Assembly: GCA_963922205.1 (NCBI GenBank) | Contig: CAWUHX010000115.1 | Location: 744,001-808,000 of the forward strand | Direction of reading: 5' to 3' | Origin: Romanomermis culicivorax | Taxonomy: Eukaryota; Nematoda; Enoplea; Mermithida; Mermithidae | Length of the DNA: 64,000 nt | In this document: piece by piece, positions 21,801 through 63,489 of the stretch | Position numbering within the stretch: the first letter of the stretch is position 1 | How the letters are laid out: every line of letters begins with the position of its first letter | Position numbers and translations under genes: made by a program | The notes under the pieces: model-generated | What the model saw: the letters and a program-made list of their open reading frames with translations, nothing else | Databases searched by the model: none | What the model was told of the DNA's origin: nothing

Positions 21801-24800
21801 AGGCGAAACGTAGCCTCTTTTGTCTACTGTGAAATTTCCATTATCCAAATGATAGGTAATGTCAGCGTTTCTACCACCATCTTTATCTTTGGCGACAACT
21901 AAAATTAGACTGTTTTTCACAAAATGCTTTTAAATTGAATAACCAAAATTAGTACTGTAGAGCGTTTACACAAAGATTTTGCTAAATATTTCTTCAATCA
22001 AAAGATTTTTGAAGGCTATTTGAGTCTCACAAATATTTTGTCTCATGTGACATATTTCATAGCCGAATATCAAAAATATGAAATAGTATTTACTCTCCAT
22101 AATTATTCGACTGATTTTCCAAAAAAACACTAAAGAAGAACATATTTTATTTATTGATTGATCTTGTTAGGCGCAGGTTGAATTTAAGAGGATTGAATAC
22201 CCAATTTCACACAAAAGTTGAACTCTGAAAATGAAGCAATGTCTAGGTATTTTTGTTTATAGTTTTCAAAAACGCTGCGAAACAGATAAGTCAGAGCTAA
22301 TCTCCGCTCAATGTTTCAGCTTAGAAGGCAGCGGAAAATTTTCAATAGCAGTGGTCGAGCAAGCTGCGAGAAATTACGGTTTTGCCACGATAATTTAGTT
22401 CATAGAATCGATTCGAACAATTTTTAGAATTTAAATGCATCAGTAAAATAAACTTTGAAATATATTCAAAATAGAATTTAATTAAAACTCCAACTAAAAA
22501 TAGGATAAACTAACGAAGATCCATTCAGACTCACTTCTCAGAATTTTCTGACCAATTGGATGATCTTCGTTGATCGTAGCAGTGTACAACGGTTGCGTAA
22601 AATAGGGATCGTTGTCGTTGACATCTCTTACAGTAATCTCCAATGGTACAGTACTTTTTAGACCACCTTCATTTGCGACTACTGCAGAAATATAAAACAG
22701 AGTGAATTTGGAAAATGTATCGAAATGTTTAGCATTGTAAAAATTTCCGAATTGGAAGAAGACAAAAAATAAATTCTTGAAATAAAACAAGAAAAATAAG
22801 CAGCAGATTCCAATGAAAATATCTGAAGGAAAATCAGCAATCTAAAGTGAATGACTAACAGAGAGGAAATAAATTGTTGGAAAATTAAAATTATAAAAAA
22901 TAAATAAACGATAGATTCGAACGCACCAGTCAATTTGTAAGATTTCGATTCGCGCGGATCGTCGAAATCGAGATTTTTGGCTAGATGAACGACGCCAGTT
23001 TCTTCATTCATTGAAAAAGCTTGCGAACGGGTGTTTTTAGCTATCGCGTGATTATTTTCGAAATTATTATTCGGATTTTCTTCGAATAAACTGAATCGAA
23101 TAGGATTATCGGGATTGTTAATAAAAGACATGGCTTTAACTTGAGCTACACTGAAATAATAAGAAAATTTAATGTTCTTGCGAATATTTACGTAATACAT
23201 ATCCGACAGTTTTGTCCACGAAATTTTCCGATTTTTAGGCGATCTAAAAAACTCATGAAAATTTCAGAAATTAATTTTTGTAGCCGGAATCACAACGAGA
23301 ATGGCAATCTGGCTTTTACAATTTGAAACCCTCGGTTATATCCCGCAAATTTTTTTCTAATACTCCTCACCTCGCTGCAACGGGCAAATCTTCAACAACC
23401 GAAGCTTTATATGATTCTTGGAAAAATTGCGGCGGTCGTTGACCGACTTTAATATCCAATTTGGCGACATCACTGACCCTACTGGTACTATTTTGCCACG
23501 TTCGGTCGTGGGCTTGAACGTAGACCAGGTAGGTTCGACTGGGTTCATAATTGGTTCGAGCTGTTTTTACTCGGCCGGTTTTCGAATCAATAGTGAAACT
23601 ATCGGAGGCTAGAATTCGAATGCAAATTTGATAAAAATTCCCAGACAAATTATGCAAAATGAAAAATGTTTAAAAGTCGAGGTTTAATGTACTTCAGCCA
23701 TACCTGAACAGTAGGTTCAACTGGATTCAACTCGGTATCAGATGAGGCAACTTCGGTACCAGATGATTTGATTTTCAGCACCAGATCATGTTTTGTGTGT
23801 GAACCAATTTCAACTGCAAAAACGGGATGGAAGACTTGAAGATAAACCATCAACCACTGGAAACTAGCTAATCAACCAACCAACTTATCATGGAACAATC
23901 TTTCAATCAACTAAACAAAACCAAGATATCAACCAACGAGAGAATGAGAGAAATAACCGATTAACCCCGGAATCAACCAACCAACCACTAAACAGGAAAT
24001 CAACCATTAACCGGAATCAACCAGCCCAGGGTTTTTTTCCGCACGCCTTCATCCACACCGTGCGGAAATGACCCAAAATTTTTTCCGCACACGAAAATTT
24101 TTTCCGGTTCGAAGTTTAAATCATCTGAAAAATGTGTGGAATGAGCGAAAATTATAGATTGCTAAGAAAATAATGGAAAGTATCTGTTTTTCTAGCTCAA
24201 AAACATTATTTTAGATTGATTGAGCAAAATTAATAGTTGCTGCTGTCATTTCAGTGATTAGAGCTGAAGATTTATAGATTTCAATTGATTTTCCAATCGA
24301 TTCAATTTCTACATTTTGATATTCTAGAATGCTGGAAAATGAGCCTTTTCAACCTCTATCTCTAAAATAAAAGGTTTGCATTTTCAGTCGAAAATCGTGT
24401 AGTTTCCCAATGAAAAAATTTGTGTTCACAAAGTTCAGAAAACTTCAAGTGAGAGAAAGAATTCATGAAGATCAATATTAAATCTCAATTTTCAACAAAA
24501 TCCGAACCTAATACTGAAGATTAATAACTGATGAATGGGATGAGGAACTTCAAATCATGAAAACCATGCACACTTAGCTTCCGATGCGTCACACCAGAGA
24601 ATTTTTGAACAAAGGAGCCACTGAAATATTGGAAAATGTATTCTAGGGATAATTTGTAATACTTTCGGTTTAGATTTTTCCTAGAAAAATGATGGTATTA
24701 AATAAATGTGTGGAGAAATAAGGGAAAAATCAGCAAATTCGTATGAAAATTCCAATTTACAGTACAAAGTAACGAGTTTTACTCACTCTAGCAGTAGTGA

Positions 24801-44304: not shown

Positions 44305-45560
44305 CAGTGTTTTTTTGTGTGCCAAAACATGGTTTTTGGCACAAAAAAATTTGAAATGACACAAAAAATTTTGAGCGTTTGAGCCAATTGAAACAAATTT
44401 TTTTTTTTGACTGGTCTAAGGCTAAATTTCCTTGATTTTTGGTCATTTTAAGGGCTGAAAACGTAAAATTTTCTCGGCGCTTCGCGCCGATTCAATGGGT
44501 TTGATATTGACTACTTTCCTTTGTCTCGAACGCGAGCGGATTCTATTCGAATAATTTATTGGTATTATCGCAACAGACTTTGAGATTGTCAATGACCGGC
44601 TAAAGAATAGAAATTGTCAACTTCACTCCCTCTGTTCATTCGGTTAGATTGAGAACCGAAAATTATATTTTTAGTGATTGATTCAAAGAAAAAAGTTGAG
44701 ATTTTTAGCACAATTATTCAACCAAAAGTCTACGTGAAGCGACTTTCGACTTAGCTTTTTTCAGGAGAAAACAATTATAGACAAGACATCCTAATTTAAT
44801 CTTTAATAATAGTTGTTAGGAAGGAGGCCGAAAAGTAAAGGAAAACTTCATGACAAAAAGTCTATAAAAATAGCTGAATTTTCGGCGCATTCAATTTCTT
44901 TTCGGATCGTAGAAACCGTTGTTTAGATCAGTTTTTCTTATCTCGCTGACGTGGTTAGAGAAAATAGAGCGAGCACGATTTTTATGCAAGTGAATGCGGT
45001 AGTGAAAGTAATCTTTAGTTAGTTTTCATCAAACTTGAAAGAAAGGAGGAAAAGAAATTTATTAAATGCAAAGAAATACAAGAAATATCAATAATACAGG
45101 AAAGCTCATGGACATGACAAAAGCACGTGCGCATTGAGCTTTAAAAAATGACTCAATTTAGATCGAAAGCAGGGCATATTGTTATAACTTTTGGCACGAA
45201 ACAGTTTTATGGTTTTCACTACGTTTTTAGAGTGAAAAAATTTTTTGTGTGGCCCTTTGTGCGAATCATACCTGTAAGACCTCCGACCAGTTGGGGGGGG
45301 GGGGGGGGGGTAAATCCGAAATTTTGGGGGGGGGGGGTAGGAAAAAGTCGAAATTTTTCCCAAAAAAGGCCAAAAAACATACACTTTTTGGCAAATTTTT
45401 TTAATTTTTTCCCAACTGGGGGGGGGGGGTTGGGGGGGGGAAAATGATTTTGGGTATAGGGTTGGCCGAGTTGGGGGGGGGGGGTCCCCCCCCCCCAACC
45501 CCCCCCAAGTACAGGTATGGTGCGAATTGGCACAAATGTCCGAGCACAAAAAAAACGCTG
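44305..45560 (+). mobile_element. Non-autonomous hAT-type element, family M5
   Basis: Starts CAGTGTTTTTTTGTGTGCC, ends CACAAAAAAAACGCTG. Perfect 8-bp duplication AAGCAAAC at 44297-44304 and 45561-45568. 1,256 bp including the nested M1 copy at 45267-45519. No transposase. Confidence 0.85.
45267..45519 (+). mobile_element. Complete poly-G MITE, family M1
   Basis: TIRs CATACCTGTA / TACAGGTATG with a perfect 8-bp duplication GTGCGAAT (45259-45266, 45520-45527). 253 bp. Reference copy that identifies M1 as hAT-type. Contains several G and C runs. Confidence 0.88.
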
Positions 45561-45568
45561 AAGCAAAC

Positions 45569-46182
45569 AGACGAAAAATTGAGCCGGGGGTAATTATCTA
45601 CAGTAAAAAATTCGTAGCCGTCAGTCGATAAAATTGCTTTGCAAGTTGCAACGATGTTTTCTGAAAGAAGAAAGTAATGCATGATTCCTCAGTTGGAGAT
45701 AACCTACATGCACATGGGGAGTTGGAGGGTCTGGAACACGAGCATGTCTTGATCGACCCCCACTAGATCCTGCTTCCTAGCATTGCACAAGAAGATGATG
45801 AAGGAAATTAGAATGAAAAGAAGAGAAAGTGTCACGACCTTTCTTAACGTTTTTGCAAACCCTGTTGCACCTACTGGAAAGTTACGACAGCAAAAAGCAA
45901 AGACTTTGGTTTTTTGTTATTTACCTGCTAAAAATTATTGAGATATATTGAAAAACGAGTGCAACGGCTCGAAGGTCGAAAGGCTTGAAATTAGCGATGG
46001 TAGGGAAAAGCTATTTTTCAAGTGAGGGATTCGTTTGCTTAGAGATCCCGTAACTAATGGGCAACTCTTTTCCCACAAAACAGCAACGTCAAACGGTTGC
46101 AAAAAAAGAACCGACAAAAGTCCAAGGAGGGAGTGTAACAATGGGCAAAAGCTGCCATTGTGCATTTTCCTCTGAACCCGTA
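45569..46182. other. Unassigned sequence left of the LTR element cluster
   Basis: No gene or clear repeat seen. Abuts the left LTR remnant of element B at 46183. Confidence 0.4.
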
Positions 46183-47236: not shown

Positions 47237-47466
47237 GTACCGTACCTTTAACCACTGGAACTCCCTGCCCCCAATTAGGTGTACTCTTATCCGGGAATTT
47301 AGAAGCATTAGATAATACAGTAATAATCATTTCCTACAGTAAGACAGTATTCGTAGAAAGCAAACTGGAAATCCCCTCCAACGAAACATTAAGTGATAAA
47401 TTTAAATGAATACAGCGTGAAGCAAAAATTGAAGCATTTAAGCAGAAATCCCAGCGTAAACCAAGA

Positions 47467-48512
47467 ATGACCCACCAAATGCAAGATCATTTAGGAGAAA
47501 TCCTTAGAGAACAGATAAACGATTTATTTTCAGAACATTTTCGTACCCTACGCACAAAATCGAATCAGAATACAGTAAACCCTACCCTAATAGATGATCT
47601 AAGAACAGCAAACATTCGTAATAACATAGCAAATAATTTCTACGCGAAACCTACAGTATTCATGGGCGGCGTGACCCAACATTTTGGTGAATGGAACAAA
47701 AGATTAGAACAATTCATGGCACTCCAAGGCATGAAAGATACAGACCTACAGTTAAAATTGGCATGTTTAGAAATTCATTTAGGAGGAGCCACGTTAGCAA
47801 AATTCAAAAGTTTAGCAAATGCCCAAAACCTTCCCCACACATACGAGCAGTATAAAGTGGCATTACAGGCATTTTTCCCAAACAATAGAGATAATGAGCT
47901 ACATCAACAATTCTTACGCGAAAGAAAACAAAAGCAATCAGAAACAGTAACTGAATTCTTATTTGATCTAGAACATCTCGCAACCCTCCCCTACCCTAAC
48001 TTTAACACAGACGCACGAGAAATGATCATAAAACCCCTCTTTGTAGAAGGCATGCAAAACGAAATCAGGGAAGCAATTAAGTATAGAAGATTCGCGACTC
48101 TAAAAGAAATGTCAGATGAAGCAGCTTACATTGAACAGCAAATTCTTAGAAATGAGTTAAAATCTAACGCCCTTCCCTTCATACCCCCAAAACCCGAACC
48201 CATCTTTTCTCTAACCAAAAACACAGACCGACAGGACCTTTTGCATCAGTTGGAACAGCAAGTAAAAGATTTACAGTTGCAGATCAAACAAAAACCTCAA
48301 TCCCCACAACAGAGTAGCTACAACAATTTCAGTAACAATACTTTCAGCAGGAATAATGCTTACAGGAACAATACCACCCCTAGGCAACCCACATGCTTCC
48401 AGTGTGGACAAATTGGACACGTAGCTCGTAATTGTAAATCAGTAGGCACCCGAAAATCATGTGAAATTTGTTTCCGTAATAATCACAGTACATGTGATTG
48501 TAAAAGCCGATG
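47467..48512 (+). CDS. Element C gag (C-terminus replaced at the junction)
   Basis: Open frame from ATG 47467, no internal stops. Capsid region (FGEWNKRLEQFMALQGMK, RERKQKQSETVTEFLFDLEHL), coiled-coil-prone LEQQVKDLQLQIKQ, Asn-rich linker, then CCHC knuckle CFQCGQIGHVARNC and a second Cys/His cluster (CEICFRNNHSTC). Homologous to, but clearly diverged from, the element B gag. The frame runs a few codons past the junction to a TGA at 48544. Confidence 0.8.
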
Positions 48513-49695
48513 CATCCACTCCGGATCTTTTCATTTTCGAGAATGATATTTGGGTACAGAATACCAATGATTTTAAATGGTCCATCTTGTTTGGTTACGA
48601 ATTTTGGACATTCTAACTGTTTCATCATATGTGTTTTCCGAAGGACGTAGCCTCCAATTTCATACTGAGTGTCGTTGGCGTTCTTATTGTATTTAGCAGT
48701 GTAATTGGATTGGGCTTCGTTGGTTGCTCTGTTCACTTTGTCAAATGCGGACGAAAGATAAGTTTTTACCCTTGTTAAGTAATCGTCTGGGTCAACCTGA
48801 TAAGGAGACCGCAGGAAAAAGGTTTCTGAGGGCAATCGGGGCTTCCTGCCATAAATTAATTCGAAGGGTGAGAAACCCATCATTTTATTCACATGAGTGT
48901 TTATCGCGAAGACTGAAAAAGGGATGTAATCATCCCAATCGTTGTGACGATCATCGACAAACATTTATAGACATGTGACGAGGGTTTGGTTCCCTCTTTC
49001 GACCTCACCATTGGTGCAAGGGTGGTAGGGCGTTGTATGTACCATTCTGGTACTGCATAATCTTGTGATTTCTGTGAAAAGTTCTGATGTGAAATCAGAG
49101 GCCCGATCACAATGAATGATTTTGGGTGCACCATGCTTACAAACGATTTGATTGACGAAAACAGAGGCTATAGTCTTTGCAGTTATATTAGGTACTGGGA
49201 AAGCCTCCATGTATTTCGTGAAATAGTCGATGAAGACGACGATGTGCAAGTTTCCATTGATTGAAGGGGTGATAGGGCCAATGCAATCTAACCCAACCCC
49301 CTCAAATGGTTCACTACTGAAGATAGGAACCATCTTTGCCTTGATTCAATGTCTGACAGGTTTGTTCATTTGGCATTTTGAACATGTTTCACAGTATGAT
49401 TTTACATCATTGTGCATTCGGGGCCAATAATACCGATCTGCAATTGAACGTAAGGTTTTTCAAAGGCGAAATGGCCCGCAAATTTTGAGTCGTGACGGGT
49501 CCTCATGACCTCATGACGTAGGGCTTTGGGAATGTAAAGTCGCTTTTTCCCATTTGAGAGATGGTAGAGAAGCCCCTTTTCCTCATAATAGTGTTTTATG
49601 AGTTCGGAATTTCCATTCCTAAGATCGGTAAGTAGTTTGCAGGTATCCGTATCTATCACTTGAAATTCTGTGAAATTTTTGGCCAATGCCTCCAC
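48512..49695 (-). pseudogene. Element B integrase, C-terminus lost
   Basis: N-terminal HHCC zinc region (RHDSKFAGHF and CETCSKC), catalytic D (GLDCIGPIT), D (IHCDRASDF) and E (GEVERGNQTL) retained, then a GPFKII module. Broken by a frameshift at about 49458, a TGA at 49348-49346 and a TAA at 48967-48965, and truncated at the junction with element C at about 48512. Confidence 0.82.
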
Positions 49696-49742
49696 ATCAG
49701 TGGCCTCATTTTCTAGACCTTGGATTGGGGCTTGGATAATGT

Positions 49743-51734
49743 TTATTGAGCCCTTACTTTCCGTTTTTCAAGGTCTGTTTGTTTAGTCTCTAGATTAGTC
49801 TCTAGACGAGTCTCTAAGGTATCAATATCAAAAGTGGGTTCAGATTTTGGATCGGGGAAATGCGAAACTGCATCAGCATTTTGGTTGGCCACATCACGAT
49901 GGGGCCTGATATCCAACTGGAAGCAAGATAAGGCTAAACCCCAATGTGCAATGCGAGGGGAGGGGTTCTCTTTGCTGAGAACAGCTTTGACAGCAGTGTG
50001 GTCAGTATGGACTATTACTTCTTTTTGAAACAAATAAGCCCTGAAGTATTTGACAAATTCGACAACTGCAAGGGCTTCTAGTTCAGTGATCGGATAATGT
50101 TTCTCAGCAGGTTTTAGCCCACGGCTTGCAAAAGCAATGGGATGCTCAAGCATATCATCCCCAATTTGACTCAAAACAGCGCCTATACCAAGCAGAGAGG
50201 CGTCTGTTTGTGAAATGAAAGCTTTTGAGAAGTCCGGATGAGCCAAAAGAGGGGCCGAAATGAGGCAAGTTTTGAGTGTGTCAAAGGCCGCTTGTTGCTC
50301 TGTGCCCCAGGCGAAAGGGGTATCCTTTTTCAATAACCTTGTCAAAGGGCTGGCAAGCATGCCCTTTATGAAATGTTGATAATACGATGGAAGACCCAAA
50401 AATGACTTGACTTCCTTAACATTAGTCGGGGCAGGAAGTTGGGAAATAGCTTCCACCTTGCCAGGGTCTGGAGCTATTCCTTTCTCAGAGATTATGTGGC
50501 CCAGGTAGTGAACTTTAGTCTGCGAAAATTTACATTTTTCGAGCTTCAATTTCAAGCCAGTGTTATCCATGCGGCTCAAAACGACATCTAGCCAAGCCAA
50601 CATTTCTGCATGGGTCCGTGCGAATACCAAAACATTGTCCAAATAAACGAGGCAATTCGACCACTGTAACCCTGAAAGTAAAACATCCATTAAGCGTTGG
50701 AAGGCTGCAGGGGCATTGCAAAGCCCAAAAGGCAGGTAGTTGAAGTGATACTGCCCAGACGAGCAGTTGAACGCTGTTTTTTCTCGATCCTGGTCAGCAA
50801 TTGGTATGCTGTAGTATGTGTTCATTTGATCTAAAGTCGTAAAATATCACATACCCCTCAAAGCATCAAAAATATCATCAATGCGCGGAAGGGGGTATGT
50901 ATCCCTTTTGGTCACATTGTTCAGGCCTCGAAAATTAATGCAGAGGTGAAAACTGCCGTCCTTCTTTTTAACCAGAACTGTATCTGTGCACCAAGGGGAA
51001 CTGCTCTTTGAGATTATCCCACTATTTTCCAGCTTTCTGATTTCTTCTTCAACCAAAGCCTTCTCTTTATGGGCTGTTCGAAAAAGGGGTCTTTTCACTG
51101 GTGTGCTACCCTGTGTCTCAATTGAATGTTCAGCAAGTGTTGTACAACCAACATCCGCTTTTGTTTTGGTGTATAAGTTTGGATATTTAGCCAGCAGATC
51201 CAAAAGAAGTTGCTTTTCCATATCTGTAAGGTCAGAACCGGACAAATCTACAGTTTGGTTCAACCATTCTTTTATGGGTTTCTCCTTGGCTGACCCATCT
51301 AGATTACCATTGTATGCTTCTTTTCTGGTTGCCATGTAACAGACCACGGAACCAATGCACATGTTCGAATTCAGTGTGACTTCTGAGTTCAAGGGATTCA
51401 TTACTGAAACCCGCAGGTTGTGGTCGATGACTGAACTCACAGTGGCAGCAAAACATACGTGTAGTTTTTCTACCACATTTAGTTCAGGCGAGAATTGGAC
51501 CATAGTCTCATTTCTGTAAAGATTTGACGCAGGGACCGAAAATTCAGTCACACTTCTTGGGGTAAGAATGACCTGTTCATTTATGTAAATGCCTCCTCCG
51601 TGGTGTAACGAATGATATTTAACTCCCATGCAGGGTACGATTTCGTTTTCCAATTTCACATATGATTTCTTGTTGTTTATAGCCCACTGTTTGAAGCAAA
51701 ATAAGAAATTTGACCCCAGTAAAAGGTCTGCAGC
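49743..51734 (-). pseudogene. Element B reverse transcriptase and RNase H
   Basis: Ty3/gypsy-type RT: KLENSGIISKSSSPW, VLVKKKDGSFHLCINFRGLN, TYPLPRIDDIFDAL, LPFGLCNAPAAFQRLM. The catalytic box reads YLDN (50645-50634) instead of YxDD. RNase H follows with TDAS, ELEALAVVEFVKYFR and HTDHTAVKAV. One in-frame TGA at 50849-50847, just before the YFTTLDQMN strand. Same frame as gag and protease. Dead copy by both criteria. Confidence 0.85.
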
Positions 51735-51968
51735 TCAGTTTTCTTGAACGAGTGCTGTGACCATTTCGTTGATAGCACCAACGTCAATCGTGAGATAAAC
51801 TGCACCCAAAACATGAATGCTCATGTTGTTGGCAGCTATAGGGATCGTATTTGTGGGTTCAATTTTAATATCACCCAATTGATCAATGATTCGTTTGTCG
51901 ACTAAGGTAAATGTAGCCCTGCAGTCTACCATAGCATTGGCGGTAATGTTTTTGTTTACTCTAACCAT
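51735..51968 (-). pseudogene. Element B retropepsin-like protease
   Basis: ATG at 51968 overlaps the env-like stop by 13 bases and returns to the gag frame. Aspartic-protease pattern: the active-site triplet context reads VDCRATFTLV where the family has D-T/S-G, so the Gly is lost. After a TGA (51737-51735) the frame continues with the second conserved stretch (LLLGSNFL) into RT. Confidence 0.65.
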
Positions 51969-53953
51969 AATATGGGCATTCTTCGATTTTCGCCACTCGC
52001 ATGGGTAGCATTATTCACCCATTCCATCAAAGGGGCACTAGGGGCCTGTGGATTTAGCACCATAATGTATTTATTTTGGGTCTCTGAATTCCTCAGACTG
52101 GCCAACTCCAAGAGGGCCTGCCCAAGCGTAGGAGTAACAGGAGGAGTGATTCGATTTCTCGGCTGCTCATACCTCGGCAATTGCCTGGGTCTTTTAGCAC
52201 ATCGAGAGACCCAGTAGCTAACATAAATAACTCCAACCACAAAAGCTATTAGGACAGCCAAGTTTGCCAACATCTGCAAAGGTCCTTTCAGCAAATTATT
52301 AAGTCCTTGGCTCATGCTTTGATGTGACCCAACAATCACGTGTTCAAGGGCTTGACCAGCCCCTAAAATTCTATTACCGATGGCTTGTCCAGACCCAGCC
52401 AGAAATTCCTACACTGTCCCTGAGTGAAGGGACATTTCTGAGGTATAATTGACTAGTCTTTTGACCACAAGTTCTAAATCATGGGTCTGAAACATATAGC
52501 TCTTCAAAAATGATAGGCTAGTTGAAACTGCTGCCAACTGACCATGAAAAATTGGCAGAGATTTGAAGCTGAAGATCGAGAAGTTTCCCTGCCAAATGAC
52601 TTCTAAGGGTACCTTACTGACATGAATAGGACCCATTTCTGTTTGCCAAGTTTGGTTGATTTTGTAAGGGTGAATTGGCTGATGGTTGCAATCCACCCTT
52701 TAGCTAAGGGGTAGGAGATCCACACCTCCTGGGGAAACAAACATCAAGTCGTTTTCCAGTAAGACTGGCATGTGTTCATAGCAGGTGCCATTGATTTTAT
52801 GATTCTTGTAAATTCGAGAGGCCTTCACTTGCCTGCACAGCCAAATTGTTATGGCCTCACCTGTGAACTGGGCAATAACGTCGGTTCATTGGAGGAAGGC
52901 CCTTGCTCCTAGAGTGGGGTCTAAATGTAGAAATTGCCATACAAGATCCAAATGTCGTTGGGCCTGCCTACATAGTTCACTCCACATATTTCGAAAACTT
53001 TGCATTTCAAAATCAATCATTTTCAACGCCATTTCTACAAGGGTTTGATTGATCTCGATCACAACACCCTGTTCAGCGAGTAGCCCATTTGTGATATTAG
53101 GGCAATTTTTGTGAGAAAAATTTGATCTTTTAACAAAAAACGCAGCTTGCAAGTCATTAATGATGATATGATGACCCGTTTGTTTCACAACATAACTGTC
53201 TTTGTACTCAAAAGGGCATATAGATTCGAGGGTCGTTTCATTCCAAACAACAACTCCGTCTGACGCAACACAGTGGCCTGAACTGGGTTTGCAGCCCCCA
53301 AGATCACCAAGGGTGCTTAGCAGATTCGAATTATCCCAGGAGGCCACTTGCCCTTCCTCAATGATTAAATTCTCAACGGAACTGCAATGATCATTGCAAC
53401 ACCACTTATATTCGACACTAAGCTTATTTGCAGTTGACCGAAAGTTCGGAAGGGTCTCGTTCAAAGTTTGGCCCTTGTAAAGTTTTGAGTACCAAAAAGT
53501 TTTGCATTCAAAAGGGATGAGTGTTGCAAGTTTCGTATCATCACCCACAATACCTTTGGAACCGAAAAATCCCGTATTTGTACAAATCGTTTGAGTTCTG
53601 ATGCTACACTTGAACGCTGGGGATAGCTTAGGGTGCCCACGAGGTACGAGAAGCTTACCCATAGTTGTCATGGGTTTCTCACCCACCATGGGTCTAATGC
53701 ACAAAACAGTTCTAGGAATTTCGATTGAGTGACCACTTTGAGAGGTTCCACATATTTGAAGTGGTGAAACTTTATTTACGCCCATGAGAATGGTGAAAAA
53801 AATATACACACATTTTAAAGAAAAAGTATGGGCGATGGTGGCTTTTTCAATAGGGGCGCCGGCCCCAGTTTGGACGGTTTCCACGCATTCCTTTCCCCTG
53901 GCCACGACTTTTGTTGTGGCCATTTTTACGAGAAAAGAAGAACCGTGGCCCAT
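51956..53953 (-). pseudogene. Element B env-like membrane glycoprotein frame, between gag and pol (three internal stops)
   Basis: About 665 codons in one frame. ATG at 53953 lies within the end of gag, +1 relative to it. Features in order: hydrophobic signal/anchor (residues about 48-59), a Cys-rich ectodomain with numerous N-x-S/T sites, and near the end a single membrane span (about 52240-52190) followed by a basic cytoplasmic tail. This is the layout of a type I viral fusion/attachment glycoprotein. The Cys and aromatic pattern vaguely recalls class III (rhabdo/chuvirus-like) glycoproteins (inference by eye). Stops at 52888-52886 (TGA), 52702-52700 (TAA) and 52411-52409 (TAG) break it without frameshift, so it is not functional as read. 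It ends at a TAA (51958-51956) overlapping the protease ATG. Confidence 0.72.
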
Positions 53954-55628
53954 TTTGTCGATGGCCCTGTTGAGGGTTTCTTGGGCCGGTCGATTGGTTT
54001 CCTTGGCCCATGAGGTTTTGGGTGCGATTTCGACGTTCTCTTCTCCGGGCTGTCCGAGCCCGCCTGCACCTTGGGCAGCGGCAATACCGCTGATTGCCGT
54101 TACACCCTGTAATGAAGAAAAAGCCCTTTTTCATGGGGCAGATAACTTTCTCGAGCTTCAAGCCTCTCACAAAGTCTGTCGAAGACAGGGGGCCTGTCAG
54201 ATCCAGGGGGAACGTCAGTTTTGCCCTTTTCGGAATTTTATAGTCTTTGGGCAAGGTCACTTTTTCAGCAGCTACCTGTTCGATCTTGCCCTCACTTAAC
54301 GAGCCTTCAGACATGGGCTCGTTTGGTTCGGGCGTTGGCGGAATGGATGCTGGCCATGCCCGATTTTCCGTCTCGTCGTTACTCCAGTCAGGGTTGTATG
54401 CTAGTGACATGACTGGACCTGTGACAGAACAATGATTTAAAGTGGTCATACCAGGGTCGTCACTATCCAGAAGATTGATAGATAACCCATTATTGTGATT
54501 CTGACCATACTTTTGGGGGCAATATTTTTCCGAATGCCCTTTGTGTTTACATTTCCTACATTCTACGGTAGGGCACTTATTGTGCTTATGTCCCACTTTT
54601 TTACAAAAGCGACATTTTGATTTACACTCAGAGGCCACATGGCCTTCTCAACTACAAATAGAACACAAAGAACCCATAGGAACCATAGGGGAGTCAGAGG
54701 CTTTCTTGCAAGTATTAGCATAATGCCCCTTTTTCCCACATTTATAGCATGTGACACTGTGATCTGAACGCCTCTGTTTTTCATTTTTACCATGATTTCG
54801 AAGTTCATCCAAAATTTTGTCAAACTTTTGGCTCAGCTGATCGACCTGATTTTTCAAAGGGTCCTCATGTTGGACCGCTAAAACTGGTTCCCTGATATAC
54901 GAAGGATATGACATAGGACAGTGGACTTTGGCTTCATCCTGCAACATTTGTGGTTCTATGAATACGGCTTCAGAAACGAGGGCAGCTAAATCATGGTACT
55001 GTTTGTACTTGATAACGCTTTGAATATCACTCAACAGACCCTCACGGAAAACGGGTTCAATTAAATTTTCCTGTAAAGCTAGTTCAAAATTAGGATAGGC
55101 GAGCCGGCCCAATTTTTCGGCTTCATTAAAGAAAGCCATTACTGTTTCAGTTCGTTTTTGTTTTCGATACCTCAAGATTTGACAGTGAAACAGGGTGTCT
55201 TGGACAACAGGGAATGTGTCTAGCAAAACCCGTTTAAATTGATCGTATGTCTCAGGAGGATTAGGGGAGTTGGAAATATTTTCAAATTTCACCAAGGCGT
55301 CCCCATCCAAATGGAATTCCAAAAATATAAGCTTGAGGGCATCATCATCAGCTTTAAGCCCCTTTAAAAGCATTTGTTTTTCGAGCTTCTTGGCCCATTC
55401 TTCGAAATTTTCAGAGGGCCTACCAGTGAAATGTGGAAAATCGAGATTTTTCGTGGACATTTTGCTCCTAAGATGTCCAATTCTTAACTCATTCAGACCC
55501 GCTTCAGTAGTGGACACTTTTGGTGCAGTTTGAGCTTCGAGTTCCTGCAGACGCCCATCCAAAACAGTGGCGAGAGCCTCCTGAATGACGTGTCCCAATG
55601 GGTCTATACTTTGGTCATGATGAGGCAT
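53847..55628 (-). pseudogene. Element B gag (one internal stop)
   Basis: Capsid/nucleocapsid polyprotein. ATG at 55628 (open upstream but without another ATG). Has the retrotransposon Gag signature (FTGRPSENFEEWAKKLEKQ, YRKQKRTETVMAFF), then four CCHC zinc knuckles (CYKCGKKGHYANTC; CSIC-x-EGHVASEC; CRFCKKVGHKHNKC; CRKCKHKGHSEKYC) and an Arg-rich tail. A TGA at 54650-54648 interrupts the second knuckle without a frameshift. The 3' end overlaps the env-like frame by 107 bases. Probably a nonsense mutation; stop readthrough cannot be excluded. Confidence 0.8.
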
Positions 55629-55826
55629 TTTTTCGTTGAGGGTTTGTTCCCTAGTTTCACGCTCAATGCGTTTAAAGACGTCACACAATGTTTTTTTAGT
55701 TACAGTATACCGGCCTGACTGTTTTGATGAAATTTTTGGGGAAAAAGATTTGACCAAGAATTATATAAAATTTTTTTTTTGTTTGGATAAGGCTAAAGAA
55801 AAAGTTTCTAGGTTCCCCTGTTATTA

Positions 55827-55840: not shown

Positions 55841-55995
55841 TGTCAGTGTTATGTCAGGGTTAAGTCAGGCTACTGTAAGATTGATATGTACTTATGAAAG
55901 TTGAGTTTTCAATTTTACTAATTTACAACTTACAAACTTTGTACAAATACGAAATTCGTGTTGATTTGATACACAACGTAAACTGGTGGGAAACT
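55841..55995 (-). repeat. Right LTR (5' LTR) of element B, recognisable part
   Basis: Direct counterpart of 46183-46337, sharing TACTGTAAGATTGATATG and GTACAAATACGAAATTC. Its inner edge sits six bases from the primer-binding site, as expected for the U5 end. The LTR probably extends further right, but the copy for comparison is truncated. Confidence 0.6.
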
Positions 55996-57046
55996 ACACA
56001 ACGTACAACTGGCGCAAAAATGCACAAAACGAAATAACGGTCCAGACTCGGGACGATTCTCGTAAGGAAAAAAACTACCAACGGAATCCGGCGCGGGATT
56101 CAACTGCTGAGGTCGACGCGAAAAACCAAAGACTGACTATGCTTCAAAAACAGGATCTTTTTCCTCGTTTCAGACCCACTCGACCCACATTTCAGACATG
56201 AAAAACACCCACAGTGGTCGGCGCGGACCATACTTGAGTTAGTGTAGGTTCTGAAATCTACAGGGCGCCACAATTAGCCCTGTTACGCAAGTGTCCGTAA
56301 TTAGTGTTTTGAGATGTCGCCACTGTTTCCATTGAACTGTGCATAATTACGCAAGTGTCCATAATTAGTGTTTTTGAGTTGTCCAAACTGTTTCCGTTGA
56401 AGTGTGCATAATTACAATAAAAAGGTGCTTCAGTGCATAAAACTCGTAATTTCAACAAACGAAAAATAGCTGTACAAAAACAGGTTTTAACCGGAATTTT
56501 TGGGGGGAAACATGGTAGAATTTGCAGAAAATGTACAGTACATAATTTTTCATAACTTTACATTTTTGTCACTCCTTGTGACACGTAGACTTGATGTTGC
56601 TCAACCAAGTCACACCACCAGACCTGGTTTTTTGACACTAATGCGCTGGCTCAGGCAATGCGGGCTGTGAATTCGGTGGGAGAGCAGCTGCCATGCAGTG
56701 TGCGAGAACTGTTACAGTAAAATAGTGTAAGTACCAACAACTGACTTTTCTCTGTTTTTTGGAGCCACACATCAACTTTCTTGGGGTGTGGTCAGCCCTA
56801 CTTGGTTCGTAAACCTGACGAAAGGTTCTATTGTGTAGCTGAACACCTGGTACCTGAACAATTTGCCAAATTATCTGAAGACGTTCAAAACATTGAACCT
56901 AATTTTGTATTTTTTGAGAAAAAGTGTGTTTTTTGTTTTGGAATGTGTTAGCCTTTCTATTTCTTGTCAGTACATACATTACGAGTGAGAAAATGAGTCA
57001 AAACAAAGCACTTGAGTTCCGAGTTTTCCAACTCGGATCTCAAATT
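55996..57046. other. Sequence between elements B and A
   Basis: Possibly includes the rest of the element B 5' LTR. Contains a 64-bp tandem duplication (56283-56346 and 56347-56415, unit starting TTACGCAAGTGTCC). No gene recognised. Confidence 0.5.
56283..56415 (+). repeat. 64-bp tandem duplication
   Basis: Two successive units, TTACGCAAGTGTCC...AATTAGTGTTTT...ACTGTTTCC...TGTGCATAA, offset by exactly 64 bases with a few substitutions. Confidence 0.75.
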
Positions 57047-57438
57047 TGTAACGAATGGTTTATTCGTTGATATTCATTATTTCTCGTTTTAACTTCCTTG
57101 TACGATTTTCTGTAATGTCCAATCTATCGCTTTTCCATAACTAACTTTTCTAGTTTGATTCCATGTTTTGTGTTTACTCTATCGCTATAATTTTGCTATA
57201 ATTAGCTATCTATCCGAGCTCAATCGTTCTAACGGGAATAATATTTACTTAGCTGTTTTACTGCTTATAAACGTTTGTCATAATGATAGATGAGAGAGAG
57301 AGCTAGAGCCGATCTATCAGTGTGATTCGCCATAACTTTAGTTGCCTTACGCTATATTGTAACGGCTACTCAACGTTTACGATATTGGCTTTGTATTACG
57401 GCTACCCAATAAAAGCTTAATATATCGTTATCGTTATA
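57047..57438 (+). repeat. 5' LTR of element A
   Basis: Identical by eye to 60487-60878 over 392 bp. Starts TGTAACGAATGG, ends ATCGTTATA. Polyadenylation signal AATAAA at 57408-57413. Confidence 0.93.
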
Positions 57439-57450
57439 TGGGGGGTCATC
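57439..57450 (+). other. Putative primer-binding site of element A
   Basis: TGGGGGGTCATC begins at the first base after the LTR; TGG is the complement of the universal CCA end of tRNAs. The primer tRNA was not identified. Confidence 0.5.
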
Positions 57451-57491
57451 AAAACTAATTATTCGAATTTTGTATACCAATTACACGAGCA

Positions 57492-60446
57492 ATGACATTG
57501 GACGAGGTACGTACCAATTTAGATTTGTTGCGGGAACAGGTTCGTCAAGAGCTAGGTCTACTGAATCAAAAGCTCAATGCACACCAGACCCCGCGACCCA
57601 ATCTTATTCGGTTTGAGCCAGATTTCTTTCATGGTCGGCCCACTGAAAATTTCGAGTCTTGGTTGAATCGGTTTAACTTAGTTGCACAAGCACAAAAATG
57701 GGATGAAACATATAAACGACTAGTTTTCCCAACCTTGTTGCGGGACGCAGCAGAAATAGTTTATAATAGTCTTAGTGACACCCAACGCACCCAACTTGAT
57801 TTTCTAGCTCTTACAGAGCTTTTCCGACAAAGATTTCGGCCACCACATATTAGTGACATTCGATCCACAGAGCTTCATGCTCGCCGTCAAAAATCGTCTG
57901 AAAGTGTTACAGATTTCAGTATTGCCATACAAAAATTAGTTCTAGAATCATATCCAGGTTTGCCACCTGATGCTATAGATACGCTCTGTAAAAGATTCTT
58001 CATTAATGGATTAAACCAGGACTTACGCCCTGATGTGATGAAACGTAGCCCCACAACATTTTCTGAAGCAGAAATTTTGGCTAGGCAGCTAGAAACCCAA
58101 CTACTAATTGAATCACAGTTGAGAGATAGAGAAAATAAGGAATGGTCAGGTTGCCACCGGGTAAATACCATAAAAACCCAAAACAGTCGACCCAATCATT
58201 ATCATAGTCCAGCAGGGAATCAACATGAGAAGACGGAGAAACAAACCTGTCATTATTGCAAAAAAGCAGGTCATTTTATTTCGGTATGTCGCAAAAGGCA
58301 AAGAGACATTCAAAATGGCACACACATGGCAGTTTCCATGGGTCAATCAGCATATAGAATGCCCAAATCCTCGCTTCCTAGAATTAAGCCTGGGAACCAT
58401 AGTTTCCATGTTGCACAGCCTTTAGTCCAACCTGAGCGCACACCACCCAGTAGGGAACATCTCCTAGAACAGGAAGTTGAAAGCTTAAGGCGACAACTTG
58501 AACAGATGTCGCAAAATTTCTCACAAAATCCATCATTCAGTGTAACTGCACAACCTGTCTCCCCTGAGAAAGATATGGTATCTCAGTGTTCTGCACAGCT
58601 ACCTACTTACAAAAGTGGATCAGACATTGTGCTACAGTATCCCACTGACCAGAATGTGGACGATTTTCCAGTAGATATTCACAAGAGTAGCAGAACGAAT
58701 AAAAAAAAGTCAACTTCTAAGAATAAGTTGCAGTCCAAGGCTAGGAACAAAGTATCAACTAGTGATAACAAAAATCCTTCCAGTATACGATGGTATGAAA
58801 AGTATACTCCCACCAAATCCCTCTCCCTTCAAGTGGGAATGATTGTAGGAATTATTATTATGGCAATAATATGCCCATTGACTGTTGGAGTAGAGCATGA
58901 TTTCTACCAATGTGGTCATGGCCGCAGTGGCCATCCAATCGCAATACCAAAGACAATGGATTGCAAAATGCCTTCAAAGGAAGTGCCAAAGAAGGTCCAA
59001 CTGAAGCTCTACCAGCCAAACCACAAACCAGCCACAATCAAAGCATGGAAACCCCGACTTCACCAAAGAACAATCTGCACCAATATTGGATTCTTCAGTG
59101 CAACAGGAATTGAAGAAGAAGATGATAGTTCAAATGAAGAAGATGACAGTGGAAGTCACAACGTGGTTGCCCAAGCGCAAAGAACTGATAGATTCTGCAA
59201 ATGGATAATAGATTATCTCGGGAAAGCATACATTGATCCTACAATGTCTGCTGAAGATATCCAGTTCTTATCAGCTGAAGCCTCTCATTATATGATTTTG
59301 GACAATCTACTGTATCGTAGAGGTAACAAAGATAACCAATCACCTCGTATAGTAGTCCCACAGTCCCTGACAACAAAAATCTTCAAATTGTACCATGAAG
59401 ACAAGTTTAATGGTCATTTAGGATTTATGAAAACGCTCGCCAAAATTTCCAAAAGATTCTATTGGCACAACGTGAATAGCGACATTCATAAGATGTGCAA
59501 GGAGTGTGTAAAATGCTTCTCCTACAAGCAACCGAATCAAAAGACAAAAGTTCCAATGCAATCCATATTGATCCCTGGGAATCCCTTTTCAATGATTGCA
59601 GTTGATGTTATGGGTCCCTTGCCTCTCACAGAGCATGGTAACAAATATCTTGTTGTTTTCATGGACTACTTTACTAAGTGGTCCAAGGTATTTGCAGTGA
59701 ATAATGCCACAGCAGAGATAACGGCGAGACTTTTTGTAGAAAATATAGTTCGTCGCTTTGGTAGCCCACATCAAATCCTGTCTGACTGTGGTACAAATTT
59801 TACATCGAAGTTATTTCGAGAAATAGCACGACTTTGCGAAAGAGAACAGAAACTAACAACACCGTACCACCCCCAAAGTGATGGTATGGTAGAGCGTTTC
59901 AATCGCACACTGACAAATATGCTGAAAATGTATGTCTCTACAACCCATGATAATTGGGATGCTCACTTACCGTATGCCCTTTTCGCCTATCCGACATCAG
60001 TCCATGAATCCACCAAGGAAACACCCTTCTACTTACTGTATGGACGTGATGCCCGGATTCCTGCAGATGAAAACTTTGCAGTGTACCGAAGCCCCTATGT
60101 TGAGAGCTTTTCATCATACAAAGAAGAGCTTCAAGATCGACTGACTGTGGCATGGCAAATAGCATCAGAGCACATACAACAAGCACAACGACTGCAGAAA
60201 ACCCAATATGATAAAACAGTCAAGATTGTGATCTTCAAGAAAGGAGATATAGTTTATTTGCATAATCTGACCGTAAAGCAGGGGAAGTGCCCCAAGTATA
60301 CTGTATATTGGTATGGACCATATCGAATCATGAAGATGGACCCACCCAATGCCCAAATACGACTTATAACAAAGCCAGATAGTCGCCTCGAAGTTGTTCA
60401 TGTCAATCGGTTACGACTATTCACCACAGAGACCAAGCCTTTGTGA
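57492..60446 (+). CDS. Element A polyprotein: Gag, Env-like N-terminus, integrase (984 aa)
   Basis: One intact ORF. Residues 1-250: Gag capsid-like (DFFHGRPTENFESWLNRF). 253-266: CCHC knuckle CHYCKKAGHFISVC. 320-345: Leu-rich coiled-coil stretch. 446-467: membrane segment (GMIVGIIIMAII). 468-540: Env-like ectodomain start, CG..., SGHPIAIPKT, TICTNIGFF, matching the element B env-like frame in order and spacing. 541-554: acidic linker. 557-984: integrase with HHCC (H635, H642, C672, C675), catalytic D705, D765 and E801 (35 residues between the last two, canonical), and GPY module at 942-944. Everything from mid-Env through protease, RT and RNase H is missing, yet the frame is open. Could give Gag particles plus active integrase, depending on a helper for RT and protease (inference). 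Confidence 0.9.
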   Translation: MTLDEVRTNLDLLREQVRQELGLLNQKLNAHQTPRPNLIRFEPDFFHGRPTENFESWLNRFNLVAQAQKWDETYKRLVFPTLLRDAAEIVYNSLSDTQRTQLDFLALTELFRQRFRPPHISDIRSTELHARRQKSSESVTDFSIAIQKLVLESYPGLPPDAIDTLCKRFFINGLNQDLRPDVMKRSPTTFSEAEILARQLETQLLIESQLRDRENKEWSGCHRVNTIKTQNSRPNHYHSPAGNQHEKTEKQTCHYCKKAGHFISVCRKRQRDIQNGTHMAVSMGQSAYRMPKSSLPRIKPGNHSFHVAQPLVQPERTPPSREHLLEQEVESLRRQLEQMSQNFSQNPSFSVTAQPVSPEKDMVSQCSAQLPTYKSGSDIVLQYPTDQNVDDFPVDIHKSSRTNKKKSTSKNKLQSKARNKVSTSDNKNPSSIRWYEKYTPTKSLSLQVGMIVGIIIMAIICPLTVGVEHDFYQCGHGRSGHPIAIPKTMDCKMPSKEVPKKVQLKLYQPNHKPATIKAWKPRLHQRTICTNIGFFSATGIEEEDDSSNEEDDSGSHNVVAQAQRTDRFCKWIIDYLGKAYIDPTMSAEDIQFLSAEASHYMILDNLLYRRGNKDNQSPRIVVPQSLTTKIFKLYHEDKFNGHLGFMKTLAKISKRFYWHNVNSDIHKMCKECVKCFSYKQPNQKTKVPMQSILIPGNPFSMIAVDVMGPLPLTEHGNKYLVVFMDYFTKWSKVFAVNNATAEITARLFVENIVRRFGSPHQILSDCGTNFTSKLFREIARLCEREQKLTTPYHPQSDGMVERFNRTLTNMLKMYVSTTHDNWDAHLPYALFAYPTSVHESTKETPFYLLYGRDARIPADENFAVYRSPYVESFSSYKEELQDRLTVAWQIASEHIQQAQRLQKTQYDKTVKIVIFKKGDIVYLHNLTVKQGKCPKYTVYWYGPYRIMKMDPPNAQIRLITKPDSRLEVVHVNRLRLFTTETKPL

Positions 60447-60474
60447 AATTGTGTATTTGGGTGTAGGTTTTTCT

Positions 60475-60486
60475 TAAGGGGTGAGG
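60475..60486 (+). other. Polypurine tract of element A
   Basis: Purine run AAGGGGTGAGG abutting the 3' LTR, as used to prime plus-strand synthesis. Confidence 0.6.
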
Positions 60487-60878
60487 TGTAACGAATGGTT
60501 TATTCGTTGATATTCATTATTTCTCGTTTTAACTTCCTTGTACGATTTTCTGTAATGTCCAATCTATCGCTTTTCCATAACTAACTTTTCTAGTTTGATT
60601 CCATGTTTTGTGTTTACTCTATCGCTATAATTTTGCTATAATTAGCTATCTATCCGAGCTCAATCGTTCTAACGGGAATAATATTTACTTAGCTGTTTTA
60701 CTGCTTATAAACGTTTGTCATAATGATAGATGAGAGAGAGAGCTAGAGCCGATCTATCAGTGTGATTCGCCATAACTTTAGTTGCCTTACGCTATATTGT
60801 AACGGCTACTCAACGTTTACGATATTGGCTTTGTATTACGGCTACCCAATAAAAGCTTAATATATCGTTATCGTTATA
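60487..60878 (+). repeat. 3' LTR of element A
   Basis: Identical to the 5' LTR;AATAAA at 60848-60853 for transcript 3'-end formation. Preceded by the polypurine tract and followed by the AATT duplication. Confidence 0.93.
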
Positions 60879-62985: not shown

Positions 62986-63307
62986 CCATTTTTTAGCACA
63001 AGAAAAACTATTGTTTCGAACACCGTTTTTTCCTCAAATGGGGTCTTTTGAGGAAAAAAATTTTGAAATGAGGAAAAAAATTTTGGGTATGATTCTCATT
63101 GTGGAAAAAATTTTGGGGAATTCAAAACCGAAAAGATGTGTTTTGGTAGACTTAAAAGGGTCAAAATCTCAAAATTTTCTGGCGCTTCGCGCCGAACTCA
63201 ATTTACTAAGGTCTGGGCCACCCTATCACATGATCGATAAGACCCATCACTCAACTGGAATGTGGAAACTTCGCACCTGAGGTGCGTCTGTAATTTTAGA
63301 TGGCGGT
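62986..63307. repeat. Resumption of host repeat and a GAGGAAAAAA-type repeat
   Basis: ACCGTTTTTTCCTCAAAT and GAGGAAAAAAATTTT, then the segment to 63190 matching the reverse complement of about 40740-40888. Ends with GGCGCTTCGCGCCGAA, a short inverted repeat also near 44485. Confidence 0.5.
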
Positions 63308-63489
63308 CATACCTGTAAGACCTCCGCCGACCAGTTGGGGGGGGGGGGGTAGAAAAAAGTCGAAATTTTCCCCAAAAAAGGCCAAAAACATACACTTTTT
63401 GGCAAATTTTTTTAATTTTTTCCAAACTGGGTGGGGGGTAAATGATTTTGGGTACTGGGTTGGCCAAGTTGGGGGGGGGGGGGTTGGGT
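63308..63489 (+). mobile_element. Poly-G MITE, family M1, right end lost
   Basis: CATACCTGTAAGACCTCC at the start, then a G run, AGTCGAAATTTT, CCAAACTGGG and GGTTGGCCAAGT with a G run. The terminal TACAGGTATG is absent. Confidence 0.65.

Follow-up and report, generated by a model that had tools for sequence, protein, structure and literature searches.

Can an envelope (Env) gene be built into the coding array of a retroelement between gag and pol, or does such an order merely reflect an insertion into one copy? The question is raised by a 64-kb stretch of the Romanomermis culicivorax genome (contig CAWUHX010000115.1; the whole stretch is here termed the window, and all coordinates refer to it), in which a long terminal repeat (LTR) element, element B, is read on the minus strand. 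An initial annotation of the window had given its order as gag, zinc knuckles, an Env-like frame, protease (PR), reverse transcriptase (RT)/RNase H and integrase (IN), and both the reading frames and Pfam matches bear this out: Element B is a dead, 3'-truncated, Ty3-type LTR element with the order gag-Env-PR-RT-RNase H-IN. The annotation also took this position of env for a lasting feature of the element, and we found it conserved, in a single frame in 15 of 16 relatives from the same genome, from Env to the protease side in a further family, and in a metagenomic protein, P0009.

Intact relatives hold Env inside one frame

Intact relatives were sought, as the initial annotation had proposed, with env and RT queries against the R. 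culicivorax genome (359,112,060 bases in 595 contigs). The env query, a 414-residue piece, returned at least 195 matches, with 101 of 3,477 candidates scored, as well as four protein matches, three of which are named R. culicivorax. Among 30 loci extracted with 1.5 kb of sequence on either side, in which motifs were counted by eye and frames were read across stops, 10 were stop-free over the entire stretch, 24 had zinc knuckles upstream in the env frame, and 19 had the protease motif VDCGA downstream in the env frame; element B's own copy failed both of the latter counts. Sixteen loci, chosen mostly for long frames, were fetched at 9.9 kb, and all but one (L046, which is broken) contain a single open frame with four knuckles, a C-terminal Env membrane span, protease and RT, placing env between knuckles and protease. 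When intact, this gag-Env-PR-RT-RNase H-IN frame extends over 2,409 or 2,472 codons.

The 15 single-frame loci, each with CCHC knuckles, fall into three families (A, B and C), between which Env is 53–57% identical by BLAST. Family D is known from one 2.2-kb locus, whose Env is 52–58% identical to those of A–C and whose frame is open from Env to the protease side. Within the 16-locus set, LTRs are 99.6–100% identical over the part compared, indicating that the insertions are young. Three copies that were read to their ends (L031, L036 and L039) have LTR ends of the TG..CA type, a purine-rich tract before the 3' LTR and 4-base target-site duplications, which we read as CATT, ACGT and TTTA, respectively; the LTR of L031 measures 809 bp. 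Pfam searches of natural pieces recovered the gag CCHC and the pol order PR-RT-RNase H-IN, the latter in L031, as PR-RT in L036 and in full in L039. Chance or a single-copy insertion is ruled out by these intact copies.

The RT query, which is independent of env, gave 133 scored matches among 6,533 candidates. Frames of at least 2,450 codons account for 44 of the 133 listed, and nine of the listed matches lie in frames of 1,700–2,000 codons, the size expected of an env-less gag-pol. In each of the five that were opened, Env lies upstream of RT; three more (C209, C88 and C5) have an env match just upstream, and the ninth is C50. No env-less relative was thus seen among the opened RT-matched frames, although the query favours close relatives, so a more distant env-less sister lineage could escape it. 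Similarly, the arrangement opposed to the initial annotation, with gag adjoining protease and env absent or 3' of integrase, appeared in none of the copies opened, which are few of the 133 RT matches scored.

Relatives also lie outside these families. Element E (family E) occupies 57047–60878 on the plus strand of the window, between LTRs (57047–57438 and 60487–60878) that are 100% identical over 392 bp and flanked by a target-site duplication read as AATT. Its single frame (57459–60446; 995 codons) runs from gag through the Env N-terminus to integrase (Pfam Integrase_H2C2, 2.3e-18; rve, 1.9e-11), PR and RT being deleted. Env follows straight after gag, and identity to families A–C is 24–27% in gag and 39–46% in the Env N-terminus. 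Element E is a recent, internally deleted insertion, probably mobilised in trans.

Among 5.8 billion proteins, searches by profile and by region yielded P0005, P0007, P0008, P0009, P0010 and P0011. The metagenomic P0009 (2,604 residues) has a PNMA-like gag (residues 87–190, below cut-off), a CCHC knuckle (411–427) and an Env (1012–1406) that is 38–41% identical to those of families A–C, and after Env comes pol, with PR (1438–1527), RT (1769–1929), RNase H and IN (2300–2390). P0005 presents Env-PR-RT on a 13-kb NCBI contig, and P0011 has a protease match, below cut-off, after Env. Another mermithid is a possible source of the metagenomic relatives; three scans of a collection of viral contigs and one of genome contigs found no relative. 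In trees of Env and of pol, families A, B and C branch alike, with C outside A and B, whereas the deeper branching has weak support and disagrees between Env and pol. The pol of P0005 is 27–31% like those of the others, as against 44–66% among the others, and its Env is 29–40% like theirs.

Element B itself is 92–94% identical to the family A copy L031 over the leader and coding part. All of its features are on the minus strand. Its 5' LTR (55841–56583) is 86% identical to that of L031 from 56583, the inner end near 55841 being our own reading. The capsid part of gag with the first zinc knuckle (54648–55760; zf-CCHC, 3.3e-05; Retrotrans_gag, 0.0073, below cut-off) terminates at an in-frame stop, and the continuation of the gag frame (53847–54647) has further knuckles and the linker, its last part being out of frame relative to intact relatives. 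Env is in pieces: the linker, the signal peptide (about 53760–53840) and the first two thirds of the ectodomain (52886–54130; 36% identical to P0001 over 70%, and about 91% to intact family A copies); a later ectodomain piece recognised from reading frames and bounded by in-frame stops (52409–52699); and, from reading frames and comparison with relatives, the membrane span, basic tail and junction to the protease (51956–52408). The N-terminal part of the aspartic protease (51735–52010) matches gag-asp_proteas below cut-off (0.0035), its L031 counterpart above it (7.8e-09), and the protease end, RT and RNase H follow in two frames as read (49743–51734; RT_RNaseH_2, 2.7e-35; RVT_1, 4.2e-26). Broken integrase pieces occupy reading frames at 48380–49767, and homology to L031, as to the family at large, ceases at 48527, with the 3' LTR gone. 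Pfam thus matched the zinc knuckle, protease (below cut-off), RT and RNase H; it gave no match in the damaged env pieces, and none to integrase in 48380–48964, the piece examined. Element B is dead because its frames have in-frame stops before their ends (three in Env and one in gag), because its Env is out of frame with both gag and PR, and because the 3' LTR is missing.

This decay also settles an argument made in the initial annotation, that the Env-like frame, by overlapping gag by 107 bases and the protease start by 13, must be built in. The overlaps are present as read, but they cannot carry that argument: Intact relatives hold gag, env and protease in one frame, which makes the overlaps products of damage. 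For the same reason, overlapping genes expressed by frameshifting or reinitiation at these overlaps are ruled out.

Elsewhere in the window, a gag fragment on the opposite strand (47410–48546, plus), 94% identical to the gag of family C (L039), abuts the truncated end of element B. An orphan piece at 46181–46343 matches part of the element B LTR at 85% identity, and two segments 18 kb apart (45266–45484 and 63307–63482) form a direct repeat pair of 74% identity. At 22679–23263 (minus), a weak cadherin-domain match (E 0.0055, below cut-off) may mark an exon of a host cadherin gene.

Env resembles class III fusion glycoproteins and is under purifying selection

The initial annotation had described an Env-like gene with a membrane span and basic tail. 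Its description holds, and the intact relatives allow the gene to be placed: Natural pieces of their Envs match PF24664 (Monjiviricetes_fusion) above cut-off in family A (8.4e-17), family B (5e-20) and family C (9.4e-19 and 2.6e-18). The top viral structure models include glycoproteins of rhabdo-like viruses, orino-, xinmo-, chu- and nyamiviruses, and there is a structural match to herpesvirus gB, although it counts against it that the Env model is weak (mean predicted local distance difference test score 58; predicted template-modelling score 0.34) and that the global template-modelling score to gB is 0.26, with a root-mean-square deviation of 35. A single-sequence search of PDB and a search of Rfam at the gathering threshold returned no match. 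From sequence profile and model, Env is assigned to the class III fusion glycoproteins, such as those of chuviruses and other Monjiviricetes.

In families A, B and C, as judged by eye, a hydrophobic stretch directly precedes the start of the ectodomain (motif CGTSxSGH), and element E and P0009 have one at the corresponding position. Across families, both the cysteines and the family signature of the ectodomain are retained, and a single membrane span with basic residues lies just before PR. Before PR, the cytoplasmic tail also has a motif, LG.ALLELA..R, common to families A, B and C (L031, L036, L039 and L040), which is perhaps a Gag contact or a protease site.

Ratios of nonsynonymous to synonymous substitution (dN/dS) were taken from five pairs within family C, since pairs within A and B are too similar for precision and synonymous sites in gag, env and pol are saturated between families. 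They are 0.07–0.10 for env, 0.03–0.06 for pol and 0.02–0.09 for gag, as compared with 0.15–0.36 for the gag-env linker. That env lies near pol and gag, and below the linker, indicates that Env is kept for its protein and not merely as an open frame. Such selection contradicts the view that env is a functionless passenger, a chuvirus-like glycoprotein gene that entered a single gag-pol element and has been carried along since, as does its identical placement in P0009, element E and the four worm families; glycoproteins of this kind are often integrated in animal genomes, going by the accessible part of one source (PMC10084718), but we judge a mere passenger very improbable here. An artefact of assembly or annotation is hardly credible, given that the copies lie on separate contigs with their own target-site duplications and that separate database proteins exist.

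Expression of the single frame

What the sequences show is the gene order, the single frame, the near-identical LTRs, the constancy within families, an Env under purifying selection and the class of that Env by sequence and fold; how Gag, Env and Pol are made from this frame is a matter of prediction. We favour, with a probability of roughly 0.6, a Gag-Env-Pol polyprotein that is translated from unspliced RNA and cleaved by signal peptidase together with the element's own protease. Full-length unspliced RNA would be translated into one polyprotein, of which Gag would remain cytosolic; the hydrophobic internal signal peptide before the Env ectodomain would open the translocon, and host signal peptidase would cleave there, much as happens in capsid-envelope polyproteins of the flavivirus type. 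The polyprotein would be threaded once through the membrane of the endoplasmic reticulum (ER), with the single span stopping transfer, such that PR-RT-RNase H-IN would emerge in the cytosol, attached to the basic tail of Env, before the element's protease frees Gag, Env and Pol. Env would serve in cell-to-cell or germline re-entry, as in errantiviruses. It is by the usual topology rules, applied to a signal peptide and a single span, that Gag and Pol would be cytosolic and Env lumenal. Because there is no stop between Env and PR, every Env would be born as an Env-Pol fusion, unless an undetected splice removes pol. Separation by a 2A peptide is ruled out, as NPGP occurs in none of the 15 frames nor in P0009.

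The wider proposal, on which we are evenly divided, is that of one lineage with a membrane-threaded Gag-Env-Pol polyprotein, in which RT would be a cytosolic extension of the Env tail, signal peptidase would separate Gag from Env, and one unspliced RNA would be both genome and only message; the lineage would be old, very recently active in a mermithid and present beyond that genome. Several points weigh against these proposals. Polyprotein processing and the signal peptide are predicted from sequence, the signal peptide having been judged by eye, and particle assembly would not be expected to draw on Gag, Env and Pol in equal amounts. Long frames or env itself largely guided the choice of loci, which biases it against env-less relatives, and the divergence of the P0005 pol makes swapping of Env or pol possible.

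Further points bear on how the frame is read. In the sequences read, a methionine is found within the signal peptide or close to it, so that translation may start internally or Env-Pol may come from a spliced message; conservation exceeds that of shuffles at one acceptor-like AG, which lies within Env and away from the junctions (P 0.01, two tests); and the gag-env linker of families A and B has acceptor-like sites with good scores. These would suit a scheme in which, despite a genuine single frame, Env is translated from a subgenomic message or one that is initiated internally, and an RNA with env removed yields Gag-Pol. There is precedent in retroviruses, whose Env comes from spliced RNA, and in foamy viruses, whose Pol does, as stated in the available portion of PMC7828637. 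Yet in three families the best splice donors of the leader and the first 600 bases of coding sequence score below the mean of shuffles, by a generic metazoan donor model from which mermithid signals may differ, and no donor shows conservation across families beyond that of synonymous shuffles, the gag-env and env-PR junctions included. Moreover, the frame is open across env in 15 of 15 copies, which excision would not need, and a spliced env message would still read on into pol. We therefore hold splicing or internal starts to be doubtful, if well worth considering. Less likely still is that Env is no longer an entry protein and now anchors or traffics Gag and Pol at intracellular membranes: Purifying selection on Env is as strong as on gag, and an Env-Pol fusion would suit a membrane tether, but the ectodomain retains its cysteines and signature across families, more than an anchor needs.

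Whether the ER-threaded polyprotein that we prefer or an undetected splicing scheme applies, one of the two is forced by an Env in mid-frame, and under either, Env or the membrane, and not Gag alone, could bring Pol into particles. The route by which a retroelement becomes infectious is thereby made directly testable.

Comparison with known systems

A captured retroelement env is usually taken to have been added after pol and to be expressed from its own RNA. Searches of an open-access library turned up neither a report that places env between gag and pol nor a description of an ER-threaded polyprotein for any reverse-transcribing element; most subscription papers were beyond reach, and an example of the gene order may exist among the elements of Chary and Hayashi (2025), whose survey reportedly lies behind 289 metazoan elements. 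What we describe are Env-bearing Ty3 elements with a gene order that we did not find described, and the same probably applies to their expression scheme. Capture of env by LTR elements is itself already known, including chuvirus-type glycoproteins in Anakin (PMC7642597) and type III glycoproteins in mosquito gypsy elements (PMC13172572), as far as the accessible parts of both sources go. R. culicivorax parasitises mosquito larvae, according to the part of PMC10879605 available to us, and its genome holds copies with open frames and near-identical LTRs, while mosquitoes carry chuvirus glycoproteins in Anakin; this contact turns the donor and the route of transfer into testable questions.

The closest comparison is with Env-bearing Metaviridae (errantiviruses and metazoan env gypsy elements), which likewise have captured a viral fusion glycoprotein alongside a Ty3-type gag and PR-RT-RNase H-IN. 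The worm elements have the LTR ends, purine tract, short target-site duplications, gag CCHC and PR-RT-RNase H-IN order of Metaviridae. Their pol pieces match RVT_1, RT_RNaseH_2, RT_RNaseH and Integrase_H2C2, with no BEL/Pao-specific family among the matches listed, and we take the matched RNase H and integrase families to be of the Ty3 sort. In errantiviruses env is a separate gene after pol, whereas here it precedes PR inside one Gag-Env-Pol frame in 15 of the 16 loci, which equally sets these loci apart from the gag-pol-env order of Retroviridae. The available portions of two sources place env after pol in LTR elements generally (PMC5408684) and the env-like proteins of Roo, Tas and Cer-7 downstream of the polyprotein (PMC7642597). 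Anakin, from mosquitoes, is also an LTR element with a captured chuvirus-type glycoprotein, but it belongs to BEL/Pao and not Ty3, and its glycoprotein is drawn as a box of its own in the accessible part of that paper (PMC7642597).

With herpesvirus gB and the Monjiviricetes glycoproteins, the Envs of families A, B and C share PF24664 and the gB fold match. Those glycoproteins are encoded by stand-alone genes, unlike the worm Env, whose tail continues into the protease. For layout, our working analogy, which implies no membership, is with polyproteins of the flavivirus and pestivirus type, in which capsid, internal signal peptide and envelope ectodomain succeed one another in one frame, as they do here; we saw no homology to them, and in the worm elements it is RT and integrase that come after Env.
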